From: Blepharisma japonicum | Taxonomy: Eukaryota > Ciliophora > Heterotrichea > Heterotrichida > Blepharismidae | DNA: 64,000 nucleotides | NCBI GenBank assembly: GCA_949751835.1 | Contig: CATKHK010000105.1 | Coordinates: 62,001 to 126,000, forward strand | Direction: 5' to 3' | Shown: in pieces, positions 35,320 to 56,276 of the stretch | How positions within the stretch are numbered: the first letter of the stretch is position 1 | Layout: the number at the start of each line of letters is the position of its first letter | Position numbers and translations under genes: made by a program | The notes under the pieces: generated by a model | What the model was told of the DNA's origin: nothing | Databases searched by the model: none | The model's input: the letters and a program-made list of their open reading frames with translations, nothing else

Positions 35320-38300
35320 TTATCCGAAAACAAGTCCATAGCTCGCTACTTTATTAATCAGTGTTGCATACACGTCAAACCAAGTTCCTTCCGGAATCGT
35401 TATATTTGGATTGAATCCTTCAGGAAATCCACCTTCTGGTATAGAAAATCCTTCAGGAGGCGTAAACCCTGCAGGCGGTGTAAATCCTTTAGGTAGCCCT
35501 CCTTCAGGCTTCGTAAACCCTTTCGGAGCTGCTTTAGCATCTATATTCTGTCCGATTTCTAGGAAAGAGCTATAATATTCATCAATAATTGCCTCCATTT
35601 CTGCCTTGTCTTCTTCTAGTTTTGCAATATCTTCTTCCAGATCGTCAGCTCTGGCTTCTAATTCTTCAATTTCATCTTCTATTTCATCCTCAGTTGAATA
35701 TATAACTTCATAGTTGCTTTCGTTGACTTCACTTGCAGGGCATGTGCTTTGTGATGAGCTATCCAGATGATAAAAATCGCTTGAAGAACAATCTCCAGGC
35801 TCATCTGCAGATGCAGTGTAGCAAGAGTCTGAGGACCCGCACCAGCCGCATTCATTGGTACTTAAGCAGTCACTGCAAGATGTATACGCATCACAATCCA
35901 CCACTGTGCATTGGCCATATTGATAATCAGAACACGAAGCGTCTGTAGGCCCATCAGAATTTCCTTCAACACATGAGTTTTCTGAAGAGCACCATACACA
36001 GCCTGAGTTGCTGGTGCATGTGTCGCAGTTTGTGTTCTCTGAGCAAGAATAGTCATAATTGTCCAGCTCTGCTTCAAGGTCATCAATTTCTTTGTTTACC
36101 TCGTCTAACTCGTCTTGTTTGACATCAATATCATTTTCTATTTGGGAAATTGAAGATGTAGCACTGAGCTCAAAGCTTAAATTAATGTTTGTGTTGAGGC
36201 TTTCAAGGGTGACATCGTCTGATTCAGAGGTAGTTGACTCTGAGGACTCGCTTGATTGTTCTGTTGCTTCTAAGGAGTCGCTTGAGTCTTCAGTTGTCTC
36301 TGTTGATTCACTTGACTCTTCTGTTTCCTCTGTTGAATCGCTTGACTCCTCTGCTGTTTCTGATGTATCAGTACTTTCACTTGATTCAGTTGTTGCAGAA
36401 CTTTCTTCTGAGCTTGCTTCTGTACTGTCTTCTGAAATATCTTCAGAGCTTTCTTCAGAGCTTTCTTCGGAGCTTTCTTCTAAACTTTCTTCTGAGCTTC
36501 CTTCTGTGCTTCCATCTGTGCTTTCATCAGCAGTTTCATCTAAGCTTTCTTCTGTGCTCTCATCAGCAGTTTCATCTGAACTTTCTTCTGAACTTTCTTC
36601 TTCACTCTCAGAACTTTCTTCTGTGTTTTCTTCTGAGCTTCCATTAGCACTTTCTTCTGAGCTTTCTTCTGAACTTTCTTCTGTACTTTCTTCTGAGCTT
36701 TCATCAGCACTTTCTTCTAAGCTTTCTTCTGTGCTTTCGTCAGAACTTTCATCAGAGCTTACATCAGAACTTTCTTCTGTGCTTTCTTCCGAACTTTCAG
36801 CATCTTCTTCTTCACTCTCAGAACTTTCTTCTGTGCTCTCATCTGAGGTTTCCTCTGAACTTTCTTCCTCACTATCAGAATTTTCTTCTTCACTTTCAGC
36901 ACTTTCTTCCTCACTTTCAGTATTTTCTTCAGTGCTTTCTTCTTCGCTTTCAGAGCTTTCAGAACTTTCTTCTTCGGTTTCAGAGCTCTCTTCGGCATCT
37001 TCTGTGCTTTCATCTGTACTTTCTTCAGAAGTTTCTTCTGTGCTTTCGTCTGTACTCTCATCCGCATTTTCTTCAGCAGTTTCTTCTGGGCTTTCTTCTG
37101 AGCTTTCTTCAGAGGTTTCTTCTGTGCTTTCGTCTGTGCTCTCCTCAGTACTTTCTTCAACGGTTTCTTCTGAGCTTTCTTCTGAGCTCTCCTCTGAGCT
37201 TTCCTCTGGGGTTTCCTCAGTAGTTTCTTCTGAGCTTTCTTCAGTAGCTTCTTCTGAGCTTTCTTCAGTAGCTTCTTCTGAGCTTTCCTCTGCGCTTTCC
37301 TCTGAGCTTTCCTCTGCGCTTTCCTCAGTAGTTTCTTCTGAGCTTTCTTCAGTAGCTTCTTCTGAGCTTTCTTCAGTAGCTTCTTCTGAGCTTTCCTCTG
37401 CGCTTTCCTCTGAGCTTTCCTCTGAGCTTTCCTCAGTAGTTTCTTCTGAGCTTTCTTCAGGAACTTCTTCTGAGCTTTCTTCAATAGCTTCTTCTGAGCT
37501 TTCCTCTGCGCTTTCCTCTGAGCTTTCCTCTAAGCTTTCCTCAGTAGTTTCTTCTGAGCTTTCTTCAGTAGCTTCTTCTGAGCTTTCTTCAGAGCTTTCC
37601 TCAGCAGACTCTTCTGAGCTTTCTTCTGTGCTTTCTTCAGAGGTTTCTACATTACTTTCTTCTGTGCTATCATCAGAGGTTTCTTCTGTGCTTTCGTCTG
37701 TGCTCTCATCAGCAGTTTCTTCTGGGGTTTCATCAGAACTTTCTTCTGAGCTTTCTTCTGAACTTTCTTCTGAACTTTCTTCTGAACTTTCTTCTGAACT
37801 TTCTTCTGAGCTTTCTTCTGTGCTTTCTTCTGTGCTCTCTTCTGAGCTTTCTTCTGAGCTTTCTTCTGAGCTTTCTTCTGTGCTTTCTTCTGTGCTCTCT
37901 TCTGAGCTTTCTTCTGCGCTTTCATCTGTGCTCTCATCAGCAGTTTCATCTGAGCTTTCTTCAGTGGTTTCTTCTGAGCTTTCATCTGTGCTTTCATCTA
38001 TGCTCTCATCAGCAGTTTCATCTGAGCTTTCTTCTGAACTTTCTTCTGAGCTTTCTTCTGTGCTTCCATCTGTGCTCTCATCAGCAGTTTCATCTAAGCT
38101 CTCTTCTGAAGTTTCTTCAGCACTTTCTTCTGTGCTCTCTTCTGAGCTTTCTTCAGAACTTTCTTCTGTGCTCTCATCTACACTTTCTTCAGCAGTTTCT
38201 TCTGAGCTTTCTTCTGTGCTCTCTTCAGAACTTTCTTCTGAGCTTTCATCTGAGCTTTCATCAGAGCTTTCATCAGCAGTTTCTTCTGAGCTTTCATCTG

Positions 38301-39357
38301 AACTTTCTTCTGAGCTTTCATCTGAGCTTTCTTCTGAGCTTTCTTCTGAACTTTCTTCTGAGCTTTCTTCTGAACTTTCTTCTGAGCTATCTTCTGAAGT
38401 TTCTTCTGTACTTTCTTCTGAGCTCTCTTCTGAAGTTTCTTCAGTGCTCTCTTCTGAGCTTTCTTCTGAACTTTCTTCTGTGCTCTCTTCAGAACTTTCT
38501 TCTTCATCTGAGCTCTCAGCAGCAGTTTCTTCTGAGCTTTCATCTGAGCTTTCTTCTGAGCTTTCATCTGAGCTTTCTTCTGAGCTTTCTTCTGAACTTT
38601 CTTCTGAGCTATCTTCTGAAGTTTCTTCTGTACTTTCTTCTGAGCTCTCTTCTGAAGTTTCTTCAGTGCTCTCTTCTGAGCTTTCTTCTGAGCTTTCTTC
38701 AGAGGTTTCTTCCGTGCTCTCTTCTGAGCTTTCATCGGTATTTTCTTCTGAACTTTCGTCTGAGCTTTCTTCTGAACTTTCTTCAGTTGAGCTGCTCTCT
38801 GAAGATTCTTCATCACTTGTCGTTTCCTCAGTCTCGCCAGATCCTTCGGTTTCACTTGAGCTATCTTCATTTGAGCTAGACTCTTCTTCGTCTACAGTCT
38901 CCTCTTCAGATTCAGAGCTCTCGGTTGATTCTTCTTCACTAGTCGATTCACTTTCACTACTTTCTTCTTCAGTACTTTCCTCTTCATTATTATCTTCTTC
39001 ACTACTGTCCTCGTTGCTGCTCTCATCGCTGCTTTCATCACTGTTTTCTTCTTCTGTAGCGTCTTCAACGTCCTCAGAATCACCAATATTTTCATCAGTA
39101 GATTGATTATCTATTCCACCATCGTCACTAGTTCCTGGATCATCCGCAGTTGGATCGTCTGTGGCATTTTGATCTGATGATGTTATTCCTTCTTCTGATC
39201 CTGATATCGAGTCAGATGTTTGGACTCCCTCTTCTGATCCAGTTTGTTTAAGCTGCAAAAAGTTTATATTGTTATGTCTAAAAATCCTTTTTGAGACTAT
39301 TTGGGAATTGACTTGGCTTAGACAAATTAGTAATAGGATAATAAGCTTTAAACCCAT
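35320..39357 (-). CDS. secreted Ser/Glu-repeat protein with PSI modules
   Basis: This is a 1,345-residue secreted protein of unknown function. A signal peptide ('MGLKLIILLLICLSQVNS') is followed by an acidic lead. A tract from about residue 120 to 975 is built from four-residue units of the type S-E-E-S/T/A, giving an enormous negative charge and hundreds of possible Ser/Thr phosphorylation or glycosylation sites. Next come a coiled coil (~1063-1096), two Cys modules with PSI-like spacing ('CDTCTSNSGCVWCSSENSC' near 1105; 'CSDCLSTNECGWCGSSDSC' near 1155) and a second coiled coil (~1220-1256). A tail of 'PKGFTPPAGFTPPEGF' repeats (~1276-1322) closes the protein. No membrane span or GPI signal is obvious. 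A cell-coat, cyst-wall or calcium-binding matrix protein is plausible. The codon pattern leaves the antisense strand open as well. Confidence 0.85.
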   Translation of the reverse strand: MGLKLIILLLICLSQVNSQIVSKRIFRHNNINFLQLKQTGSEEGVQTSDSISGSEEGITSSDQNATDDPTADDPGTSDDGGIDNQSTDENIGDSEDVEDATEEENSDESSDESSNEDSSEEDNNEEESTEEESSESESTSEEESTESSESEEETVDEEESSSNEDSSSETEGSGETEETTSDEESSESSSTEESSEESSDESSEENTDESSEESTEETSEESSEESSEESTEETSEESSEESTEETSEDSSEESSEESSEESSDESSEESSDESSEETAAESSDEEESSEESTEESSEESSEESTEETSEESSEESTEETSEDSSEESSEESSEESSEESSEESSDESSEESSDESSEETADESSDESSDESSEESSEESTEESSEETAEESVDESTEESSEESSEESTEESAEETSEESLDETADESTDGSTEESSEESSEESSDETADESIDESTDESSEETTEESSDETADESTDESAEESSEESTEESTEESSEESSEESSEESTEESTEESSEESSEESSEESSEESSEESSEESSDETPEETADESTDESTEETSDDSTEESNVETSEESTEESSEESAEESSEESSEEATEESSEETTEESLEESSEESAEESSEEAIEESSEEVPEESSEETTEESSEESSEESAEESSEEATEESSEEATEESSEETTEESAEESSEESAEESSEEATEESSEEATEESSEETTEETPEESSEESSEESSEETVEESTEESTDESTEETSEESSEESPEETAEENADESTDESTEETSEESTDESTEDAEESSETEEESSESSESEEESTEENTESEEESAESEEENSDSEEESSEETSDESTEESSESEEEDAESSEESTEESSDVSSDESSDESTEESLEESADESSEESTEESSEESSEESANGSSEENTEESSESEEESSEESSDETADESTEESLDETADESTDGSTEGSSEESLEESSEESSEESSEDISEDSTEASSEESSATTESSESTDTSETAEESSDSTEETEESSESTETTEDSSDSLEATEQSSESSESTTSESDDVTLESLNTNINLSFELSATSSISQIENDIDVKQDELDEVNKEIDDLEAELDNYDYSCSENTNCDTCTSNSGCVWCSSENSCVEGNSDGPTDASCSDYQYGQCTVVDCDAYTSCSDCLSTNECGWCGSSDSCYTASADEPGDCSSSDFYHLDSSSQSTCPASEVNESNYEVIYSTEDEIEDEIEELEARADDLEEDIAKLEEDKAEMEAIIDEYYSSFLEIGQNIDAKAAPKGFTKPEGGLPKGFTPPAGFTPPEGFSIPEGGFPEGFNPNITIPEGTWFDVYATLINKVASYGLVFG
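36430..38990 (-). repeat. 12-nt minisatellite coding for SEES units, with 108-nt and 222-nt higher-order copies
   Basis: The coding strand repeats a 12-nt unit (TCAGAAGAAAGC and variants). Higher-order copies are visible: a 108-nt unit (36 residues) begins at 37271, 37379 and 37487 with near-identical sequence. A longer block starting at about 38384 recurs at about 38606, 222 nt away. All shifts are multiples of three, so the frame is kept. Confidence 0.85.
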
Positions 39358-43120: not shown

Positions 43121-46033
43121 TTAGTGATTTACCCCAAGTGAATTCACAAGCTTAAGAGTCTGCGGGTTTAATTTTTCTTTTGAAAATGAGCAAAAGAACA
43201 TAATTAGATCTTCGCTAGTTGTAGTCTGCATGAGAAAAGACTGACTATATACAGCTAATCCTTTGATTTTTTGTGTTAATGACTCCAATCCTTTTTCAGC
43301 ATCCCATATTTTTATCGTTTTGTCCTGGCTTCCTGAGCAAATAAATTTACCATCAGATGAATAGCTTATTGAAGTGATTTCCTCGATATGACCTTTGAAC
43401 TCAATAAACTCTAAGGAATTAATATCATATAACAATATATTTGCATTATCTGCAACAGCTAGGTAGCCTTCACAAGGAGAAAATGCAAGAATATTCCCAT
43501 CTAAGAAAATATTTGACTCACTAAAATTTGTGGTGTTTCATAAACTGATTTCGTTTTCAAAGCTTATAGTGGCAAGTATATTTCCCAAAGGTGAAAATAT
43601 CACATATTTATAAGGATAGTTGATGGTAAGTATTCTTTTCTCCTCCCAATTATCTATGCTTATAATTCTAATTTCATGTTTGCATGATAAAACAAATACA
43701 TTTAAATTTGGATGAAAAGCAATATCATAGACATTTTCAAATTTTTTAAATATTTTTTGAGCTTCAATTTCTCATATAATCGCACAATTATCATTCCCGA
43801 CTGATGCTATATATTTCCCAAACGGTACAAATTCGACTGATCTAGGATATTCTCTGTGGCCAATAAATTTTCTAATCACACTCCTATTTTTAATATCATA
43901 AAGCTTAACTACTTTATCTGCTCCTCCCCCTGATAGAAGTAGTTCATCATTTGGGGAAAAACAAATCGAAGACACAAAACCTTCGTGAATTTTATGCTCA
44001 GATAGTAATTTTAGATTCTGAATATCTCAGATTTTGATTGTTTCACCTTCCCCTGCAGATGCGAGATATCTATTTGAAGAGGATAGAGAAATTGAATATA
44101 CAGGTTCTTTATGACCATAACATTCCGTATACCTAAGATTCGGATCAAAATTTCATATATAAATAGCACTATGATATCCTGTCGCCAAAAGATTCCCATA
44201 TTTTGAAAATGCAACTGCTTTCTGACCAACGAATTCATTTATTTTCTTATTCTTATATACATCCCACAATTTACATGAGCAATCATCACTGACTGATGCT
44301 AAAAATTTACCGCAAGGTGAAAAGGAAACAGAATTAATAATATTTTCATGTTCTGATAATTTTTTAATGCAAACATCCTTGACGATATCCCATACTTGAA
44401 CCAACTTTTCATCCCCAAAAGCTATCCAATCCTCAGTAGAAGAAAAATCAACAGAAGTGATGAAAGAATCATTTAAAAAACATTTTTCTGCAGTTCCATT
44501 TATGATATTCCATACAATAATTCTTTTATCTCAGCTCCCAGATGCTAAATGCCGCCCATTTCTAGAAAAACACACAGATGAGACACTGGCTGTATGCTTT
44601 TTAAGCGTTTTTATGTGCCGGGATTGTTTATAATCTCATAAAATCACTGTTTGATCACCACTACCAGATGCTAGATAGCTTCCGCAAGGAGAAAAGCTAA
44701 CAGAATAAACATTTCCTTTATGAGCCTTCAGTGAATATTCAATCTCTTCAGTTGAAATCTCTCATACATATACAATTTTATTAGTTCCTCCATACGCAAT
44801 ATACTCTCCATCAGGAGAGAAGCAAACTGTAGAGACTAATTCTTTCGATAATATAGTATATTTTTCTGTATTCATATCAAACAGTATGGGCCTCAAGTAC
44901 TCATCGATGTAAGCAAGGGCTTTCTCATCAGGAGAAAATTGCACGACACATGTATAATCTTTACTGTAATTACTAAAATCTACGCTTCGTTTCATATGCA
45001 TGCTAAACTTTGCATTATCAAGAACACAGTTTTTAAAGTTTATCCAGTAGCAATTTGACCTTGAGAAATCAACTCACTGTAGGTCACTTCCTTCAAAGTC
45101 AATATTTATGAGCGATGTATTGCTGAGGTCGGCGAATGGAATATTTATTCCTCTAAAATCGATGTTTAAAAATGAGAATCCTATCCAATTTAAAATTGTA
45201 ATTGAGTTGCTTGCTGCTGTTGCAATGCTTTTATGGCCCTTAGAAAAATTTACTATATTAAATAAAATTTCTTTTGTTTTATCAGTCAAAAATTTCTTCA
45301 GTAAAGAAGACATTTCATACTTATTTGATATAAGATCTCGATTATAATATGAATGCTCTAAGGATGCTACATCTTTGAATTTAAGTATATCTGCAATAAG
45401 AGTTTTGCAGTAAAGTAAATTCAACAGCTCTGGAGTTACAAATTTTTCCATATCAAAAATATTTTGGAAGGTTTGGAGTGCAAGCACTTCTTTATTTCTC
45501 TTAATAGTAATAGAAAATTGGTTATTACTACTAAGATCGCTTTCAGTATTATTAGAGAATTCTGTGTCATACCATCTTTCAATGTCCTCAATTGAGCTGT
45601 CAGGAGGAGCTGACAAAAATTCTTCAATTCTAGATTGGTATATTTTAGAAATTTTTTGAGTGCTACAGATTTTTTCTTTCATTTGAAGCAATTTCAGAAT
45701 CTTTTGGTCACATTCTTGGACATAAATGTTCTGATCCTTGATAAGCTCTGATAGCAGTGCTTTACTTTTTTCAAGCTGATTCTTCTTCATCTCGCAGAAA
45801 TGGAGAACTTTCATATCCAAGAATTGAGCAAGTAAATCTTTTGTGGCAGTGTTAGGAATTACATATAAAGGTTCAGTATTGTGAATATTGACGCTTTCAG
45901 TTGATCTGTGCTCAGCAAGATGATTTTGGCACAAGACAATTCCTCCTGGCTTACAGTGACATAAAATTTGAGGCTTTTCTTTGCAAAACTCATAGTGGCA
46001 AGTAATAAAGGATCATTCATTTTCATTAGCCAT
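43121..46033 (-). CDS. B-box / pentapeptide-repeat / WD40 protein
   Basis: This is a 970-residue protein in one frame with many TGA-Trp codons. Residues 12-45 form a B-box-like zinc site ('CHYEFC', 'LCHC', 'VLCQNHLAEH'). A coiled coil follows (~75-135) and a helical region to ~285. About 288-345 are pentapeptide-like repeats ('LNIDFRGINIPFADLSNTSL'). From ~355 to 935 a run of WD40 repeats makes one or two propellers ('VVQFSPDEKALAYI', 'VSFSPCGSYLASGSGDQTVILW', 'VSFSPCGKFLASVSDD', 'ISYSSDGKFICSGSQDKTIKIW'). Most blade-ending Trp are TGA, which is why the gene looks shattered under the standard code. No catalytic domain is seen. A scaffold or substrate-recognition role is likely. It resembles the multi-repeat B-box proteins expanded in ciliates. 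The stop faces the carbonic anhydrase stop at 157 bp. Confidence 0.88.
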
Positions 46034-46878: not shown

Positions 46879-47103
46879 TTTTCTCTGAAAAGGCCAAAAC
46901 ATTTATACTCTTTCAGATTTCAATTATTCTCAATTACGCCTGAAGGCGCAGGAATTATTAAAACAGTAAATTATGAATATGCTATGAGAATGTGCAGAAG
47001 TAATGATGGGAAAAATAAGTGTAGGTCCAATCCACCTGACAGCAGAGCATTGGATGAGGAAAATTTGAAATCCAGCATCCAGTTTTTTGACTTGGCAATT
47101 TAA
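46879..47103 (+). pseudogene. 3' fragment of a third receptor paralogue
   Basis: A frame ending in TAA at 47101-47103 matches the C-terminal tails of the two large receptor genes downstream. 'LYSFRFQLFSITPEGAGIIKT' corresponds to 'LFRFQLFAMSPEDAGIVKT' in copy 1. 'SRALDEENLKSSIQFFDLAI' corresponds to 'SNALDEENLKSSLQFYDMAV'. Only about the last 70 residues are left; the ectodomain and membrane part are missing upstream. It is closer to copy 1 than to copy 2 in the last 20 residues. This looks like a remnant of an earlier tandem member, lost by deletion. Confidence 0.8.
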
Positions 47104-48135: not shown

Positions 48136-51100
48136 ATGGTGATATTGTATTTACTTCTTGGTTTCGTTGCAGGTCAATTCACTGTTATACCGACGTTATA
48201 TAGTAAGTATACTAGTCCAGCAATGGTTGAATATTTCTTGAACACGTTAGATTGTTCAGGAAATAATACCGCTGGCTGTCACTTGAATGTACCTTTCCAA
48301 TTTGCAGTTTTCCAAATCAACGATTTTTCGGACTTCGAAGATATTTTTACCGCTGACTCAGATTATCTGTTCGTTTATGATGCTACTCTGTCAATCAGCA
48401 TGAATACATTAATCAGCCAATACGCAAGAATATATGGGTTTAACCACTTTATTATTGACAATGCTCCAGAAAATCCCCTGCCCTATGTCTACTACTCGTA
48501 TTACTCTTTAAGTTCTCACGCTAAAGCAACTCTAGCCGTTGCAAAGGCTTACAATATAGAAAAAGCCATTACTGTTGTCAGTAGTGAATTTATAAAAATT
48601 GACTTTAATATTGATGAAAAAGTCGAAATTGTTGATCAGTTCGCTCTTACTGAACTCGCTACTTATGATTATGTATACTGGTTATTTTCTAAGAAAATTA
48701 AACCGCTAGGTATTAAATGCATAATCATGAAAACTAATACCAGACTCTCCAAGTTAATCCAACAGGCAATTGTAGAGGCTGACATGAATCAAAAAGGATA
48801 CACGTTTCTTTATGTACAAGAAGCTGCCTGAGGAGCTTATTTAGATGGTTCAATTTTAATAGAAGAAAAGTGGTATCATAGCACCGATTTTTTATCATTT
48901 ATCCAGACACTTCTTATCTCGGGCTCTCAATCATTTTATGCAGTTCTTTCTAGCAGCAAAATTCAAGCGTCATACTCAGCATATATAATTTATAATAGGA
49001 TTGCGAATGGTAGCCAGTCAAGTTTTACGATTTGGAATTTCCAAAATGGAAAATTAGTAAGGGTTGGAACTATGAGCAAAAGTCTTCAGCTTATTGCACC
49101 GATTATGTTCCCAGGAAAAACATATAATTTGCCAAATAATGATAGAATCAAAATTCCTTTTAGTATAAATAGAGAAGATTCTAAAGTTGATGGAAGGAAT
49201 GCAATGAACCAGGAAGGTGCTGATTTTGCATTACAAACAATTAAAAATGAGGGCAGATTATTAACAAATTTTGATGTTACCGTTAATAATATTACCGATT
49301 GTGATTTAAATTCAAATTCTTCTGATGCTTGTTTTCTAAATCATACTGAAGATTTTGGTTATTTTCATATTCCTCCTACAGAGTCGTCAATGACCTTACG
49401 AACAATCGAAACATTTCAAGCCCTCAATATTTCAACACCAATTATTGGAGTAGAAACCTCAATTCAAACGAATAGCCTAAAATACTATCCGCAATATTCA
49501 AGAGTTTCATACCCAAACTCTCGCACAGCTTCTGCATCTGCTCTGATTTTAAGTGTATTTGGAATTAAAAAATGCTCTTTATTATACTCAGACTCTGCGT
49601 GAGGTGAAGACTTTAATGAGCAATTTAAAAATCAAACAAATTCATATGAAATCCAGATTCTAAATAAAAATCGAGCAATTCCACTTGGATATGATGGAAC
49701 TGATAAGAAAAGCATTAAGGAAATTATTGATAGTAAAAGTAGATATGTTATTTTAGAAGTGCAGCAGCCTGATATTTTTTATGTTATTGAGGCATTTTAT
49801 GATTTAGGAATGAGAAAGGGCGACATTTATTTGATAATTGGAGATGGAATGGTTAGCATCTCAGACTTAGATGAAAAAGAAATCGGGACTGATGCTTTCA
49901 ATAAAAGAAAAGAAATTATGAATGGGCTGATTTACATCAGTTTCTTAGCCTTTGAAAACCAAGCTGGACTTGACATTAAAAATAGTTTTATGTCTAAATA
50001 TGGTCATATTCATGATTATATGTGCTTATTTTATGACGCTGTGTATCTCGGAATCGAAGCAATTTCTGCCTTATTTGAGCGAGGAATTAATTTAGACAAC
50101 GATAAAATTCAAAAGATAATCAGAGATGTAAAATTCACTGGCTGCTCTGGGGTTGTTCGAATAAGCCAAGAAGGAAACGACAGGCTTACAGTAAATTTGG
50201 GCATTTATAACTTAATTCAAGTAAATTCTACTTGAACAATGAATCTTTGTGGCCATTACGATCCAAGCCAATTGATAGTGTTACAAATTAATCAACAATT
50301 TTCATGGACTACTGATGGGAAGGTTCCCAGTGACATTATAGGAGATGACCAAAACTGCCCCTTTAGGGAAATTCAAGTCCGATCTTTCACGTACGGATAT
50401 ATCATATTGATAATTATAGAAATGGTACCTTATATTATTATAATTGGATTTATCGCAAAATTCTACCAATTAATTTTTAAATCAAAATACCCAAAGCTCG
50501 CTACTATTGAAAGAGAAAATGTAGTGGATCTTATTTCTTATCTTCTTATGCTGATTGAAAGCCTACAGTATATGCAAATAGGACCAGATTTTACTGGATT
50601 TTTTCCACAGTGGTCTAATGTTACTAAACTTGCAGCGCTTGATATAAGTGGGTGGTTTAGAGATGGTTTTTTTACATTTTGAAATGAAGTCCAACTATTT
50701 GAAAGTCTCTCACTTGCATGATTCATTCTTTTTGTTTTAGGATGGCTTAGATTCAGCTTTTTAGATTTTATTGATGACTTTAATTTATGGGCTTTGCCTA
50801 TTGTTGGAGATGTGCTATTCTTGCCTATAAACTTATATTTATTTGAAACTTATCAATGCACAAGCTCAATCGGAGATAATTTTAGTGACAGTTTTCATGA
50901 TCACTACTGCTCAACATTTTGCTGACAAGAAGAGCACATTTACTATGTAATAATTTCATCAATAGCAATTTGTTTATATACTCCTACAAGCTTGTATTAC
51001 AGATTCATATGGAAAGATAACCTTCCATTTCATTTTAAAGAACAAAAGTTTCATTGCGTTTTAAAAAGTTTTGTCCAAGTAACCTTGATAGCATTATATA

Positions 51101-51600
51101 CCATAGTTCGACCTGCATCTGAAGATATTTTCTTAGGACTCGGCATAGGACTGCTGCTTATGTATATATTGATTTTAATTTTTCGACAGCCTTTCACTTA
51201 CGATAGAGCTTCACTCTGGTATATCATATTTTTGGCTTGCAGTCTTTTGGTGTGGGCTTGTTGTGCGTTGGAAAAACTCAATAATATTGCAGCATTAATA
51301 ACACTTGTTGTAGGATGGATACTACTCGGACTTGTGGGAGCTATTTACCAAAAATTATTTCTTCCTTCACTTTTGGAATCAGAAAAAGGCCTTGGTATTC
51401 ATACACTTTTCAGGTTCCAATTGTTTGCTATGAGCCCTGAAGATGCAGGAATTGTTAAAACCGTAAAATATGAGTATGCTGGCAATATGAGTCAAAGCAA
51501 TGATGTAAGAAATAAGTATATTTACAATTCACCAGATAGCAACGCATTGGATGAGGAAAATTTGAAATCCAGTTTACAGTTTTATGATATGGCAGTTTAG
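48136..51600 (+). CDS. double Venus-flytrap, multi-span receptor-like protein, copy 1
   Basis: This is a 1,154-residue, intronless cell-surface protein whose frame is carried by several TGA-Trp codons. The signal peptide is 'MVILYLLLGFVAGQ'. Module 1 (about 15-325) and module 2 (about 335-700) both have the pattern of type I periplasmic-binding/ANF-receptor domains. Module 1 closes with 'SFTIWNFQNGKLVRVG'; module 2 has 'DGRNAMNQEGADFALQTI', 'SASALILSVFGIKKCSLLYSDS' and 'DIYLIIGDGM'. Such Venus-flytrap folds bind amino acids and other small ligands. About nine hydrophobic spans follow (755-1075), including 'GYIILIIIEMVPYIIIIGFI', 'LPIVGDVLFLPINLYLFETY' and 'LFLACSLLV'-like segments, with a Cys-rich loop ('HDHYCSTFCW'). 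An 80-residue cytosolic tail ends 'SSLQFYDMAV'. Nine spans do not match class C GPCRs (seven). The ligand is unknown. Confidence 0.82.
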
Positions 51601-52793
51601 ACTTTATAAAGCTTATTATAATATTATTTATATAGAATAATAAATAGGTATTGGTTAAATTTTATTTTGCATATTAAATTAATAATAAAATATCAAATAA
51701 ATATATGAGTCCTTAAGCAGTTAAAACTTATTAATATCTACCTTTGTTGAAAAATATATCCCTCTACAAGAGCAGGCTCTAACGGGATCAATTGTGTAGG
51801 TTCATCAGGCACAAGACGAAAGATGCAGTATGCTGGGCTTGTGATTGGGATAAGAAGATGAAGAGCATGCGATCACAAACTGTATACATATAAAGAAATT
51901 AGAGAAGAATTTAAAGACAAATTAAGTAAAATAATTTTATATCAATTTTTTATATATGAATTTTTACCAACAATTAATTATTATTAATTTTAGACAGTAT
52001 TCTAAACTTAAATTTTATAATTTAATAAAAATTATGTAAAGTTTAAAAACTAATTGAATTTAAGAATATTGCTAATTGGATGAGTTGGCAAAATTAGAGG
52101 CGCATACATAAATCTTATTTCTCAAAGTATGAAAATCATCCCAAAAGTTTTAATAATTATAGTCTAGCATTTTTCCTACCATCTCTTTTAATATTTTTTA
52201 TTGTTCCATGAAAGATATTCTAACTTTTGCATGAATAAGAACTGAAATACTTCATACGCACTTTCTTTGATTTATTGTCCAATCAATAGGTATCACATAT
52301 CTACTTATAAAAGACTAACAATTTTAAAACCAGAAATAATTTGAAGTTTAGAAAATATTAAATTATTATATTTCTACTGCCCTATATTTAACAGGATTAC
52401 TTTATGATATAAAAGTTTCATATTGGTTGAAAAATTATCTGAATTTAATATTTCTGGATTATAATTTTATTAAATAGAAAATTTTTAAAGTTCTAAATTT
52501 TCCGTTTTGATTTCTTTGATATTTATAATAAAGAAATTGTTTTAACATTTTGAAATCGTTCAGCTTTTATGCATGCAACATTTAACAGTTGCTGATTTTA
52601 ATAAATCTTTTAACTCTAAGGAGTGCCTATAAGTGGCCTTTTTCATTATCTTTCGTTATATTTCTAGATGGAATTATTTTTAAATGCCTACCAAAACAGA
52701 ATAATAATTAAGAACCTTCATAGTATCTCGATAATCGTTTTATATTCTTTTTTTAATACTTTTTAATCCAATCTATTAAAATTATATCAGATT
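51601..52793. other. 1.2-kb spacer between receptor paralogues with a G+C-richer island
   Basis: This is mostly AT-rich sequence. A segment at about 51,770-51,890 is visibly richer in G and C and is open in more than one frame on each strand ('PTQLIPLEPALVEGYIF' on the minus strand, for example). No start codon, family or RNA structure could be assigned. The rest should include the 3' flank of copy 1 and the promoter of copy 2. Confidence 0.45.
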
Positions 52794-55700
52794 ATGCTGA
52801 TATTTTATTTACAATTAAGTCTTGCAGCATCCCAATTCACTACAATACCAGCACTATTCAGTAAAAATACAAGCCCACTCTTAATCAATTACTTTAGGAG
52901 CACTCTCGAGTGCTCATTAAATTACACTTCTGGCTGCAATTTAGGTTTGCCTTTCTTATACTCAGTTTATGAGATTGATGATTTTTCTGATTTTGACCAG
53001 ATCTTCACTTCTGATTCGAATTATCTATTTGTGTATGATGGGACTTGATCAATCAGTGCCTCTACATTGATAAGTGAATATGCAAGAAATTATGGCTTTA
53101 TTCATTTTATCATTGATTATTCCCCAGAAAAGCCTTTACCATATGTCTATTATTCATTTTATTCATTGAGCACTCATGCAAAGTCAGCACTAGCTATTGC
53201 AAGGGCTTACAGCATTAAAAAAGCCATAGCCGTTATTAGTAGTGAATTTATCAAAATTGACTTTGGGATTGATGAAGAAGTTGAAATTGTTGCTCAGTTC
53301 GTTTTAACTGAGCTGGTAACTTATGACTATGTTTACTGACTATTTTCTAAAAAAATCAAACCTTTAGGGGTAAAATGGCTATTTTTTAAAACTAATACAA
53401 GAATATCTAAGCTCATCCAAGAAGCAATAGTCGGAGCAGACATGGACAAAGAAGGATATACATTTCTTTATATAGAGGAAGCTGCTTGAGGTGCTTATTT
53501 GGAAGGGTCTATTTTATTAGAAGAAAAGTGGTTTCATAGCACTGATTTTTATTCTTATACTTACCAGCTTGTGGTATTGGGAACTGCACTGTATTATGGG
53601 GTAATGGAAAACACAAATATTCAAGCTTCTTACTCAGCATATGAAATCTTTAATCTTGTATCAAGAGAAATTTCACCTGAGACAGCAGGATTTACTATAT
53701 GGAATATTCAAAGCCCTGGAAATCTTACAGCGGTTGGGTATTTTAACAATAAAGGGCTTAGCATTTATGCGCCTATCATGTTCCCAGGAGGAACATATAA
53801 TTTGCCAAATAATGAAAAACTTCAAATTCCGATCAGTATAAATAAAGAAGATTCTAAATACGATGGAAGAAATTTGATGAATCAGGATGGAGCAATTTTT
53901 GCAATTGATACCATAGAGCAAAAAGGAAATTTACTGTCAAATTTTGATATTACTCTCAATAGCATTAAAGATTGTGATTTTGGAGTAAATTCTGTTGATA
54001 ATTGCTTTCTAAATCATACTGAAGATTTGGGTTATTTTCATATTCCTCCAACAGAGTCTTCAATGACCTGGCAGACCATTGAAACTTTTCAAGCTCTCAA
54101 TATTTCAACGCCTATTATTGGAGTAGAAACCTCAACTCAAACTAGTAACTCTAAATACTACCCCCAATATGCGAGAGTTTCATACCCAAACTCTCGTACA
54201 GCTTCTGCATCTGCTCTTATTTTAAGTGTGTTTGGAATATCAAAGTGCTCTTTATTATATTCAGATTCACTATGAGGAGAGGATTTTAACGAGCAATTTG
54301 AAAATCAAACAGAATCTTATGGAATTAAGATTCTCAATAAAAATAGAGCAATTCCTCTTGGATATAATGGAACCGATAGAAAAAGCATTAAGGAAATTAT
54401 AGAAAGTAAAAGCAGGTATGTAGTCTTAGAAGTCCAGCAGCCTGATATTTTTTATGTAATTGAGACATTTTATGAGTTAGGGATGAGAGAAGGTGATATT
54501 TATTTGATTGCAGGGGATGGAATGGTAAGCGTATCAGATTTAGACGAAAAAGAAATTGGAGCAAGTTCTTATAATAAAAGAAAAGAAATTATGAGCGGAC
54601 TGATTTATATTAGCTTCTTAACGTTTGAAAATCAGGTTGGAGTTGAAATAAAAAATAATTTTTTAGCTAAATATGGTCATATCCATGATTATATGTGCTT
54701 ATTTTATGATGCTGCGTATCTTGGAATTCAAGCCCTTTCTGCTCTAATTGATAGAGGAATTAATTTGGATAGCTATAATATACAAAGAATAATTAGAGAC
54801 GTTAAATTTACAGGATGCTCCGGAGTGATTCGTATTAGTCAAGATGGAAATGATAAACTTTCAGTGAATTTGGGGATCTATAACTTAATAAATACAAATT
54901 CTACATGGTCAATGAACCTCTGCGGTCTTTATGACCCCAGCCAGCTAATTGTGCTACAAGTAAAAGAGCAATTTTCATGAACATCTAGTGGCAAAATCCC
55001 TAGCGATATTATAGGCGATGACCAAGAGTGCCCATTTAGGAGTATCCAAGTGAAGTCATTTGATAATGGATATATCATCTTGACAATCGCAGAAATTATC
55101 CCATTTATTATCGGAATTGGGTTTCTTACCAAATTTTATCATCCTATTTTCATTGAAAAGTTTCCATTGCTTCTTTCAGTAGAGAAAGAAAATCTGTTAG
55201 ATCTTATTTCATATTTAATTATGGCTATTGAAAGCCTTCAATATATGCAAATAGGGCCAGATTTTACAGACTTTTTCCCTCAATTATCTAATGTAACTAA
55301 ATTATCAACACTCAATATTGCAGGTTGATTTAAAAAAGGGTTTTTTACTTTTTGAAACCAAATTCAATTATTTGATAGCCTCTCACTTGGATGATGTACT
55401 CTTTTTATCCTAAAAAGATTTATTACCGCTAATACATTTCAAATTCTAAATGAGTTCAATTTGTGATTCTTACCTATAGTTGGAGATATACTATTTTTAC
55501 CTATTAACATGTATTTATTTCAAACATTTCAATGTACAAGTGCAATAGGAGATCATTTTAAAGATAGCTTTCATGATGAATACTGCTCTATGTTTTGCTG
55601 GCAAGGAGAGCACATCTATTATGTGATAATTTCTTCTATAGCAATCTGTTTATATACTCCTGCAAGTTTATATTTTAGATTCACATGAAAAAACGATCTT

Positions 55701-56276
55701 TCATTTCACTTTAAAGAACAGAAGTTCCATTATGCACTAAAGAGCTTTGTCCAAATGACTTTGATTGCATTATACACGATTGTTCGGCCAGCATCTGAAA
55801 ATATTTTCTTAGGTCTTGGTATGGGGCTATTACTGATTTATATAATTATTTCAATATTCCGACAGCCTTTTACTTATGGCAGAGCTTCATTATGATATTC
55901 AATATTTTTAATATGCAGTCTTTTAGTTTGGATTTGCTGTGCGTTAGCAAAACTCAATAAAATTGCAGCATTGGCTGTTCTTGTTGTAGGATGGTTAATG
56001 CTTGCAATAGCAGGAGCACTTTATCAAAAATTATACCTTCCTTCACTTTTGGAGTCTTTAAAAGGTCAAGATATTTATAAGTTATTCAGATTTCAATTGT
56101 TTTCAATCAGCCCTGATGAAGCAGGAATCTCCAAAAAAGTAAAATATGAATATGTTCGGGGTATAGTTCAGAGCAATAATGTCGAAAATAAATATAAATC
56201 TAATCCAATAGATAGTAGTGCATTAGATGAGGAAATTTTGAAGTCAAGTATGCAATCTTTAGAGATATCTATCTAA
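52794..56276 (+). CDS. double Venus-flytrap, multi-span receptor-like protein, copy 2
   Basis: This is a 1,160-residue paralogue of the preceding gene, same strand, intronless, collinear over its whole length. It has a signal peptide ('MLIFYLQLSLAASQ'), flytrap modules at about 15-330 and 340-705, nine membrane spans and a cytosolic tail ('SSMQSLEISI'). Long stretches are nearly identical to copy 1, for example 'GYFHIPPTESSMT' and 'RVSYPNSRTASASALILSVFG', while the first 100 residues and the tail end differ more. That suggests conserved folding with divergent surfaces. At least eight TGA-Trp codons interrupt the frame under the standard code. The conserved Cys of the ectodomain ('CDF...CFLNHTED') and the membrane loop ('DEYCSMFCW') are kept. 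Ligand and signalling partner are unknown. Confidence 0.82.

Follow-up and report, generated by a model that had tools for sequence, protein, structure and literature searches.

The window, by which we mean the whole 64,000-nucleotide stretch of Blepharisma japonicum DNA that was analysed, contains two receptor genes, termed R1 and R2, whose features are collected in Table 1. When TGA is read as tryptophan, both frames are uninterrupted and collinear (6 in-frame TGA codons in R1 and 11 in R2), neither needs an intron, and the two proteins are 72% identical over their whole length. The locus was described in the initial annotation as a pair of collinear, intronless paralogues, and this description is borne out with exact frames. 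The relic of a third copy ends 1.0 kb before the start of R1, a distance close to the gap of 1.2 kb between R1 and R2; the initial annotation mentioned neither this relic nor the related loci of the genome, which number roughly 195.

Table 1. Features of the receptor locus (positions in the window)
Feature	Position	Strand	Description
Relic of third copy	46912..47100	+	tblastn E 3.6e-21; last 63 residues of receptor, 67% identical to R1
R1 (first receptor gene)	48136..51600	+	1154 aa; open frame without intron, TGA = Trp
R1 signal-peptide-like hydrophobic start	48136..48180	+	residues 1-15; hydropathy
R1 first flytrap, divergent	48181..49155	+	residues 16-340; ANF_receptor in relatives, family profile
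R1 second flytrap	49216..50214	+	residues 361-693; PF01094 E 2.8e-25
R1 membrane module, about nine spans	50401..51345	+	residues 756-1070; family-averaged hydropathy
R1 tail	51346..51597	+	84 aa; cytosolic if span number odd (by topology)
R2 (second receptor gene)	52794..56276	+	1160 aa; layout as R1
R2 first flytrap	52839..53828	+	family-level matches
R2 second flytrap	53892..54854	+	residues 367-687; PF01094 E 3.6e-25
R2 membrane module	55074..56018	+	hydropathy

Of the 43 family frames that were read, 31 exceed 1100 aa without interruption and constitute our set of full-length members; the other 12 are broken or cut by locus or contig ends. In these 31 members tryptophan is encoded by 305 TGA and 320 TGG codons; for 151 of those 305 TGA codons, the remaining members most often have tryptophan at the same position. 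Both the codon counts and the conservation of tryptophan at TGA positions support the reading of TGA as Trp. Telomere repeats were found neither in the window nor at the four contig ends examined and are present elsewhere in the genome; the genetic code and the CCCTAACA telomeres fit Blepharisma. Counting GTA..TAG spacings in the 64-kb window, we observed no peak at 15-16 bases.

The start of the receptors resembles a signal peptide by hydropathy only, the best 10-residue value near the N-terminus being 2.92 in R1 and 1.53-3.72 across the 31 members. The second of the two flytraps is readily recognized, scoring 89.5 bits in R1 and 89.2 bits in R2 against PF01094 (cut-off 25.4), and its family profile matches the PDB structures of plant GLR3.4 (3e-22), GABA-B1 (1.7e-17), T1R2 (5.3e-16), mGluR8 (3.8e-15) and NPR-C (8.4e-12). 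A Pfam scan of full-length R1 and R2 detected the first flytrap in neither, and that of R1 alone reaches only E 0.22 against ANF_receptor; among close relatives, however, ANF_receptor matches 19 of 26 N-domains (E up to 1), with a best value of 1.7e-8. Beyond the close clade, nine members were read over their entire length; all possess the membrane module, and their first flytrap has clear support in seven and weak support in two. Four of the nine exceed the PF01094 cut-off and one falls slightly under it. The N-domains of loci L001, L002, L003 and L006 score 63.5, 56.5, 48.9 and 45.5 bits against the cut-off of 25.4, while in L004, L005, L007 and L008, where Pfam finds no first flytrap, the family profile is strong in L007 and L008 and weak in L004 (E 2.8e-4) and L005 (E 0.007). 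Profile comparison of the first flytrap with the second gives a weak match (probability 11%, E 0.0028), and in PDB the first flytrap aligns with the end portion of the GluN1 N-domain at E 0.019. Since structure predictions made with two aligned sequences were of low confidence (mean pLDDT 28.8 for full R1/R2 and 35.5 for the membrane modules), our claims about folds rest on sequence profiles. On these, the earlier proposal of two type I flytraps per receptor appears sound, the second being assigned by PF01094 at about 1e-25 and the first at the level of the family.

Between R1 and R2, dN/dS is 0.17, 0.12 and 0.15 for the three modules and rises to 0.25 for the tail; both genes are under purifying selection. 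In six of eight pairs hand-picked for dN/dS among the 31 full-length members the outermost module, the first flytrap, changes faster.

As the positions of the amino-acid pocket we take Ser165, Thr188, Asp208 and Asp318 (mGluR1 numbering), which were mapped by eye. By this mapping, the Ser165 position of the second flytrap is occupied by Ser or Thr in 18 of the 24 close members, R1 and R2 among them, and in all eight divergent members, and the Thr188 position holds Thr or Ser in 19 of 24 and seven of eight, such that the Ser/Thr positions typical of amino-acid-binding flytraps are retained in most second flytraps. Asp is found at the Asp318 position in 17 of the 24 close and none of the eight divergent members, and the Asp208 position holds Asn in 23 of the 24 close members and Asp in three of the eight divergent ones. 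With Asn prevailing at the Asp208 position of the close members, and Asp missing altogether from the Asp318 position of the divergent ones, the pocket departs from that of mGluR.

Downstream of residue 735, hydropathy averaged over the 31 members exceeds 0.85 in nine windows that do not overlap. We stress that span 2, the weakest, reaches 1.21, below an ectodomain window at 1.34, and that a threshold of 1.2 applied to the sequences one by one shows only eight spans in R1 and seven in R2; "about nine" is therefore the right wording. Members have on average three Cys in the loop that connects spans 4 and 5, and K/R per residue is about 0.15 in the inner loops and 0.08 in the outer loops. These data agree with the expectation of more than seven spans followed by a short tail; an odd number of spans would place its 84 residues in the cytosol. 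A PDB search with the membrane-module profile gave no match up to E 10, and 24 membrane modules compared with Pfam showed no convincing family. The candidates that we set aside were 7TMR-DISM_7TM (two of 24 modules, best 2.9e-5 and 24.5 bits, the cut-off being 29), DUF981 (one of 24, 0.0016), DUF6585 (two of 24, 0.021) and three further single matches at 0.079 or worse; in a rescan of nine of the 24 modules, 7TMR-DISM_7TM and DUF981 fell under their cut-offs.

Across the genome, on 53 contigs, one or more of the three modules occur at about 195 loci, a rough figure that was built from the best-scoring candidates only and includes fragments and pseudogenes. The count took in all 106 membrane-module rows and left out 4 of 106 ANF rows and 1 of 116 N-domain rows, all of them in or beside counted genes. 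A neighbour within 5 kb is present for 144 of the roughly 195 loci, and the double-flytrap family appears from its sequences to be large and tandemly expanded. In a prokaryote genome collection 27 stretches matched a search pattern and none encodes a relative; the open-licence PMC literature yielded no ciliate double-flytrap family. Type I flytraps serve amino-acid uptake in bacteria and carriers are often many-spanned, so these proteins might be flytrap-fed nutrient-uptake transporters; yet the 24 membrane modules match no transporter family and some 195 loci would be better suited to detecting many cues, and we consider this quite improbable. If the family is as large as it seems, flytrap receptors would account for about 0.8% of the genes of one ciliate (195 loci relative to the total of 25,711 genes given for B. 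stoltei; PMC9942806).

The initial annotation called the layout unusual by comparison with class C GPCRs and natriuretic receptors. Natriuretic peptide receptors have one flytrap and one span, and they and the receptor guanylate cyclases share the type I flytrap with R1 and R2 (NPR-C). The differences from both groups hold, but flytraps in tandem also occur elsewhere: in PMC6027212 the majority of trypanosome receptor adenylate cyclases are described as having two of them outside. These trypanosomatid cyclases (ESAG4 and kin) form, as here, a many-isoform protist family; they combine one span with a cytosolic cyclase, whereas R1 and R2 have about nine spans and a short tail, and a Pfam scan recognized neither a cyclase nor a kinase in the two.

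Class C GPCRs (GABA-B, mGluR, T1R), whose type I flytrap has an amino-acid-type pocket, are among the best PDB profile matches, and R1 and R2 might accordingly be divergent GPCRs, their membrane module consisting of a 7TM core plus additional helices and coupling to a trimeric G protein. The genome encodes 7TM proteins whose end is RGS-like (two were read; the RGS label was given by eye), two of the 24 membrane modules touch 7TMR-DISM_7TM below its cut-off, and a GPCR knock-out in Tetrahymena reduces G-protein activity (PMC3226668, in excerpt). However, class C GPCRs have one flytrap per chain, a 7tm_3 core and a G protein, whereas R1 and R2 have two flytraps and about nine spans, and none of the 24 membrane modules matches 7tm_3, though three other genes of the genome do. 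In a genome search for G-alpha (PF00503), run with no positive-control genome, all 19 matches coincide with PF00025 Arf genes, two of them passing the cut-off only by summing neighbours in one C42 frame; a search for G-gamma, also run with no control, gave no match. PMC3226668 itself states that no Tetrahymena G protein had been molecularly identified at the time. We consider G-alpha likely to be absent from the genome and a divergent-GPCR identity unlikely.

Because G-alpha was not found, the membrane module most likely signals directly. It may be that of a ligand-gated cation channel distantly related to TRP-like or CRMP-like modules that this genome also encodes, a tentative proposal nested within our preferred reading as chemoreceptors. 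When the family membrane module (34 sequences) was aligned by hhalign with six TRP-like members, the score of 27.9 exceeded all 120 shuffled controls (maximum 23.9) and the reversed control (17.3), with an alignment that covers about spans 7-9 at a common K-P-Y-N motif; nevertheless, in absolute terms the match has little significance (probability 3.5%, E 0.012), and the TRP-like sequences are few, two of the six being short. CRMPs and PF06011 TRP-like proteins also carry a large ectodomain on a multi-span module, with weak profile likeness over the last spans, but their ectodomain is Cys-rich and that of R1 and R2, which have no PF06011 match in Pfam, consists of flytraps. As given in an excerpt of PMC9670195, the CRMPs of Toxoplasma and Plasmodium have nine spans and those of Tetrahymena five. 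None of the 14 PF06011 matches in the genome lies at a flytrap locus, and no pore motif was identified in the membrane module. Among PDB structures the second flytrap matches GLR3.4 best, a plant protein that we group with the ionotropic glutamate receptors; Pfam finds no Lig_chan in R1 or R2, and the three Lig_chan matches in the genome lie outside family loci.

A comparison with CRMPs also raises the alternative of surface adhesion or secretion-trigger receptors that do not sense small molecules, for which the size of the ectodomain, whose two flytraps together carry 7.5 N-glycosylation sequons per member, the many spans and the faster change of the outermost module would speak. Given that most second flytraps keep the Ser/Thr ligand positions, and that Pfam finds no adhesive or Cys-rich repeat in R1 or R2, we judge this improbable.

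From the evidence as a whole we lean towards the hypothesis that R1 and R2 are cell-surface chemoreceptors, in which the second flytrap binds amino-acid-like ligands, the first is a divergent partner and signalling by the membrane module requires no trimeric G protein; a chemoreceptor role, as already suggested, probably remains the best general reading. The second flytrap would close on an amino acid or an amino-acid-like molecule, and the first would form with it an internal flytrap dimer, comparable to that made by two separate chains in GABA-B. The closing motion would shift the membrane module, which may then signal as an ion channel or through a cytosolic partner bound by the 84-residue tail, and the output might steer ciliary beating or feeding. 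The family suggests a rich chemical sense of unusual build. If the hypothesis is right, a single cell would have arrived independently at chemical sensing on a large scale, using receptors whose membrane module Pfam and PDB searches do not recognize and which work without detectable G-alpha. More speculatively, and with odds that we would put well below even, the receptors may represent an undescribed class: a tandem-flytrap, built-in heterodimer on a nine-span, channel-like module that dispenses with trimeric G proteins, serving as the smell and taste repertoire, about 195 loci strong, of one cell, some member of which (R1 and R2 not being singled out) is the long-sought gamone 2 receptor.

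The structure of gamone 2 (blepharismone) was reportedly published in 1973. That R1 or R2 itself is the gamone 2 receptor, a role which the initial annotation thought conceivable, seems to us highly improbable. Gamone 2 is an amino-acid-derived lactate (PMC10892320, an excerpt of which names no receptor for it), and Asn in place of Asp208 might fit a hydroxyl better than an amino group; but this Asn is common to 23 of the 24 close members and hence not specific to R1 and R2, which are two among about 195 loci, and nothing favours gamone 2 over any other amino-acid-like ligand. The link is weakly compatible with the data, through chemistry only, in the lactate derivative and the retained Ser/Thr pocket positions. 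If our reading of the family is right, the roughly 195 loci would constitute a finite list of candidates for the gamone 2 receptor.

Read with TGA as tryptophan, the window holds two long open frames, R1 and R2, at the places where the initial annotation had named two receptor loci (table); the products are 72% identical. TGA codes for tryptophan here: it supplies 305 of the 625 Trp codons in the 31 full-length members of the family to which the pair belongs, and at 151 of these 305 positions Trp is the commonest residue among the other members. As a triple repeat, CCCTAACA, the telomere repeat reported for Blepharisma stoltei (PMC9942806), gives 168 overlapping matches in the searched genome (45.2 Mb in 224 contigs), against 0 for its reverse as control; the listed matches lie near contig starts or, on contigs C4 and C17, where the end is known, at the contig end. 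Code and repeats together are consistent with Blepharisma and do not prove the species. For B. stoltei a genome of 41 Mb and introns of 15-16 bp are reported (PMC9942806); no introns of this type were demonstrated in the window.

Pfam recognises a single ANF_receptor domain per protein, the second flytrap (residues 361-693 in R1, 367-687 in R2), and R1 residues 16-340 searched alone against the same model seem blank (E 0.22). Across the family the first module does match ANF_receptor in 19 of 26 members (best E 1.7e-8). Among nine members that we read from outside the close clade, it exceeds the Pfam cut-off of 25.4 bits in four (L001, L002, L003 and L006, 45.5-63.5 bits) and lies marginally under it in L079 (25.0 bits); the ANF_receptor match is absent from the first module of L004, L005, L007 and L008, where the family profile of this domain is clear in L007 (E 4e-24) and L008 (E 2e-29) and weak in L004 (E 2.8e-4) and L005 (E 0.007). 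All nine have a second flytrap above cut-off, and the profile of the membrane module finds it in every one of them (E at most 1e-31). Compared with each other, the two flytrap profiles match weakly (probability 11%, E 0.0028), aligning in register up to a common end motif, and the first reaches GluN1 near the end of the GluN1 N-domain (E 0.019). Two predicted flytraps per protein are well supported by these profiles across the family and, by homology to it, in R1 and R2.

In family-averaged hydropathy (31 members), nine non-overlapping windows exceed 0.85 beyond residue 735, starting at 756, 799, 858, 885, 935, 974, 997, 1027 and 1051; the second of them (1.21) is below the strongest ectodomain window (1.34). 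Taken singly at a cut of 1.2, R1 shows eight spans and R2 seven. With the ectodomain placed outside, K/R density is about 0.15 per residue in the inner loops, against about 0.08 in the outer ones; in the loop that joins span 4 to span 5, members have a mean of three Cys. The annotated architecture of two flytraps and more than seven spans (about nine) thus holds, the second flytrap by Pfam in R1 and R2, the first by family profiles and the spans in the 31-member average.

Receptor genes and other features of the window and of the searched genome
Feature	Location	Strand	Basis or description
R1	48136-51600	+	uninterrupted frame under TGA=Trp, 1154 aa
R2	52794-56276	+	uninterrupted frame under TGA=Trp, 1160 aa
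Receptor piece, 63 residues	46912-47100	+	tblastn of R1 and R2 against window, E 3.6e-21
WD40-repeat-like protein	43121-46033	-	970 aa; label by eye
Repeat-rich protein	35320-39357	-	1345 aa
Youngest copy compared	C129:62594-66070		dN/dS comparison
Youngest copy compared	C129:68957-72442		dN/dS comparison
Youngest copy compared	C217:149-3631		dN/dS comparison
Array with broken copies	G000:C126:63937-104781		
Array with broken copies	C127:73150-79544		
7TM proteins with RGS-like C-terminal part	L073, L074 (C5, C25)		RGS label by eye

The receptor piece corresponds, at 67% identity, to the final 63 residues of R1, in the tail region, and ends 1.0 kb upstream of R1; because this spacing is near that between R1 and R2 (1.2 kb), it looks like the remnant of a third tandem copy. 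The WD40-repeat-like protein adjoins the array, and the repeat-rich protein, mostly Ser/Glu/Thr repeats with a Cys-rich C-terminal part, is encoded by DNA of strongly skewed base composition.

Whole-genome searches returned 106 rows for ANF_receptor, 106 for the R1 membrane module and 116 for the R1 first flytrap. Grouping 323 of these 328 rows by order and distance gave 195 family loci on 53 contigs, 90 of them with at least two modules and 144 with a neighbour within 5 kb, which enlarges the annotated pair to a family of about 195 loci. In a FastTree tree of 31 members, R1 and R2 are sisters (support 1.000), nested in a clade of C17, C126 and C127 genes. The arrays on C126 and C127 contain broken copies, with flytrap and membrane pieces in separate frames next to intact genes.

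R1 and R2 look to be under constraint, with dN/dS of 0.17 (first flytrap), 0.12 (second flytrap), 0.15 (membrane module) and 0.25 (tail) at a dS of 0.98-1.39 across modules. The first flytrap has the higher dN of the two in six of eight chosen pairs. Two comparisons of the youngest copies, with few changes, give dN/dS of 0.92 and 0.80 for the first flytrap and 0.15 and 0.20 for the second; change in their outer module may be relaxed or diversifying.

Searched against the PDB, the second-flytrap profile of the family hits plant GLR3.4 (3e-22), GABA-B1 (1.7e-17), T1R2 (5.3e-16) and mGluR8 (3.8e-15). Pocket positions, whose numbers we take to be those of mGluR1, were mapped by eye on alignment A5 in 24 close and 8 divergent members. 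The position of Ser165 (R1 Ser417) is Ser/Thr in 18/24 close and 8/8 divergent members, that of Thr188 (R1 Thr441) Thr/Ser in 19/24 and 7/8, and that of Asp318 (R1 Asp570) Asp in 17/24 and 0/8; at Asp208 there is Asn in 23/24 close members and Asp in 3/8 divergent ones. The predicted pocket, which differs from that of mGluRs at mapped positions, favours an amino-acid-like ligand. The chemoreceptor role first proposed for these putative receptors is kept as the best reading, while the suggested link of the pair to a gamone is without support of its own.

All 19 matches of the G-alpha model fall inside model positions 159-264 and coincide with genes detected by the Arf model; two loci that we read are Arf-like frames, and two C42 rows, also Arf matches, pass the G-alpha cut-off only through summed neighbours in one frame. 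G-alpha was not detected beyond Arf genes in this genome profile search, run with no G-alpha-positive control genome, and G-gamma had no match in a genome search without any control. Lig_chan matches three genes apart from the family. 7tm_3 matches three genes, all outside family loci; the two that we read are 7TM proteins with an RGS-like end, in a genome that yielded no G-alpha.

Most trypanosome receptor adenylate cyclases are reported to have two flytraps per chain (PMC6027212), as in the R1/R2 family, but a single span against about nine here. Neither 7tm_2 nor 7tm_3 matches the membrane modules of 24 members in Pfam, and the step of an eLife survey described as scanning ciliate proteomes with these profiles (PMC12716839) would therefore miss the family. 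In the literature, surveyed mostly at surface level, we found no published description of this ciliate-type double-flytrap family. The novelty seems to lie in how these features combine and in their scale: two flytraps, a membrane module with about nine spans that matched none of the families searched, about 195 loci and no detectable G-alpha, in one probable ciliate.

For the membrane modules of 24 members the best Pfam match has E 2.9e-5 and is under its own cut-off; in the PDB no chain matches the module up to E 10. PF06011 (TRP-like) matches at 14 places, 0 of them at family loci. Nine spans are predicted for the CRMPs of Toxoplasma and Plasmodium and five for those of Tetrahymena (PMC9670195). 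Compared by profile with six TRP-like proteins of this genome, the family's membrane module gives E 0.012 and a probability of 3.5%, but the score of 27.9 is above that of the reversed control (17.3) and of every one of 120 shuffles (at most 23.9), a hint, no more, that the module may be distantly akin to TRP-like or CRMP-like ones. A second tandem family lies on C15, C110 and C139 (L071, L072), with 23 matches above 500 bits there and 3 elsewhere; its members combine a Cys-rich ectodomain with a multi-span end and by eye look CRMP-like, and several match PF06011.
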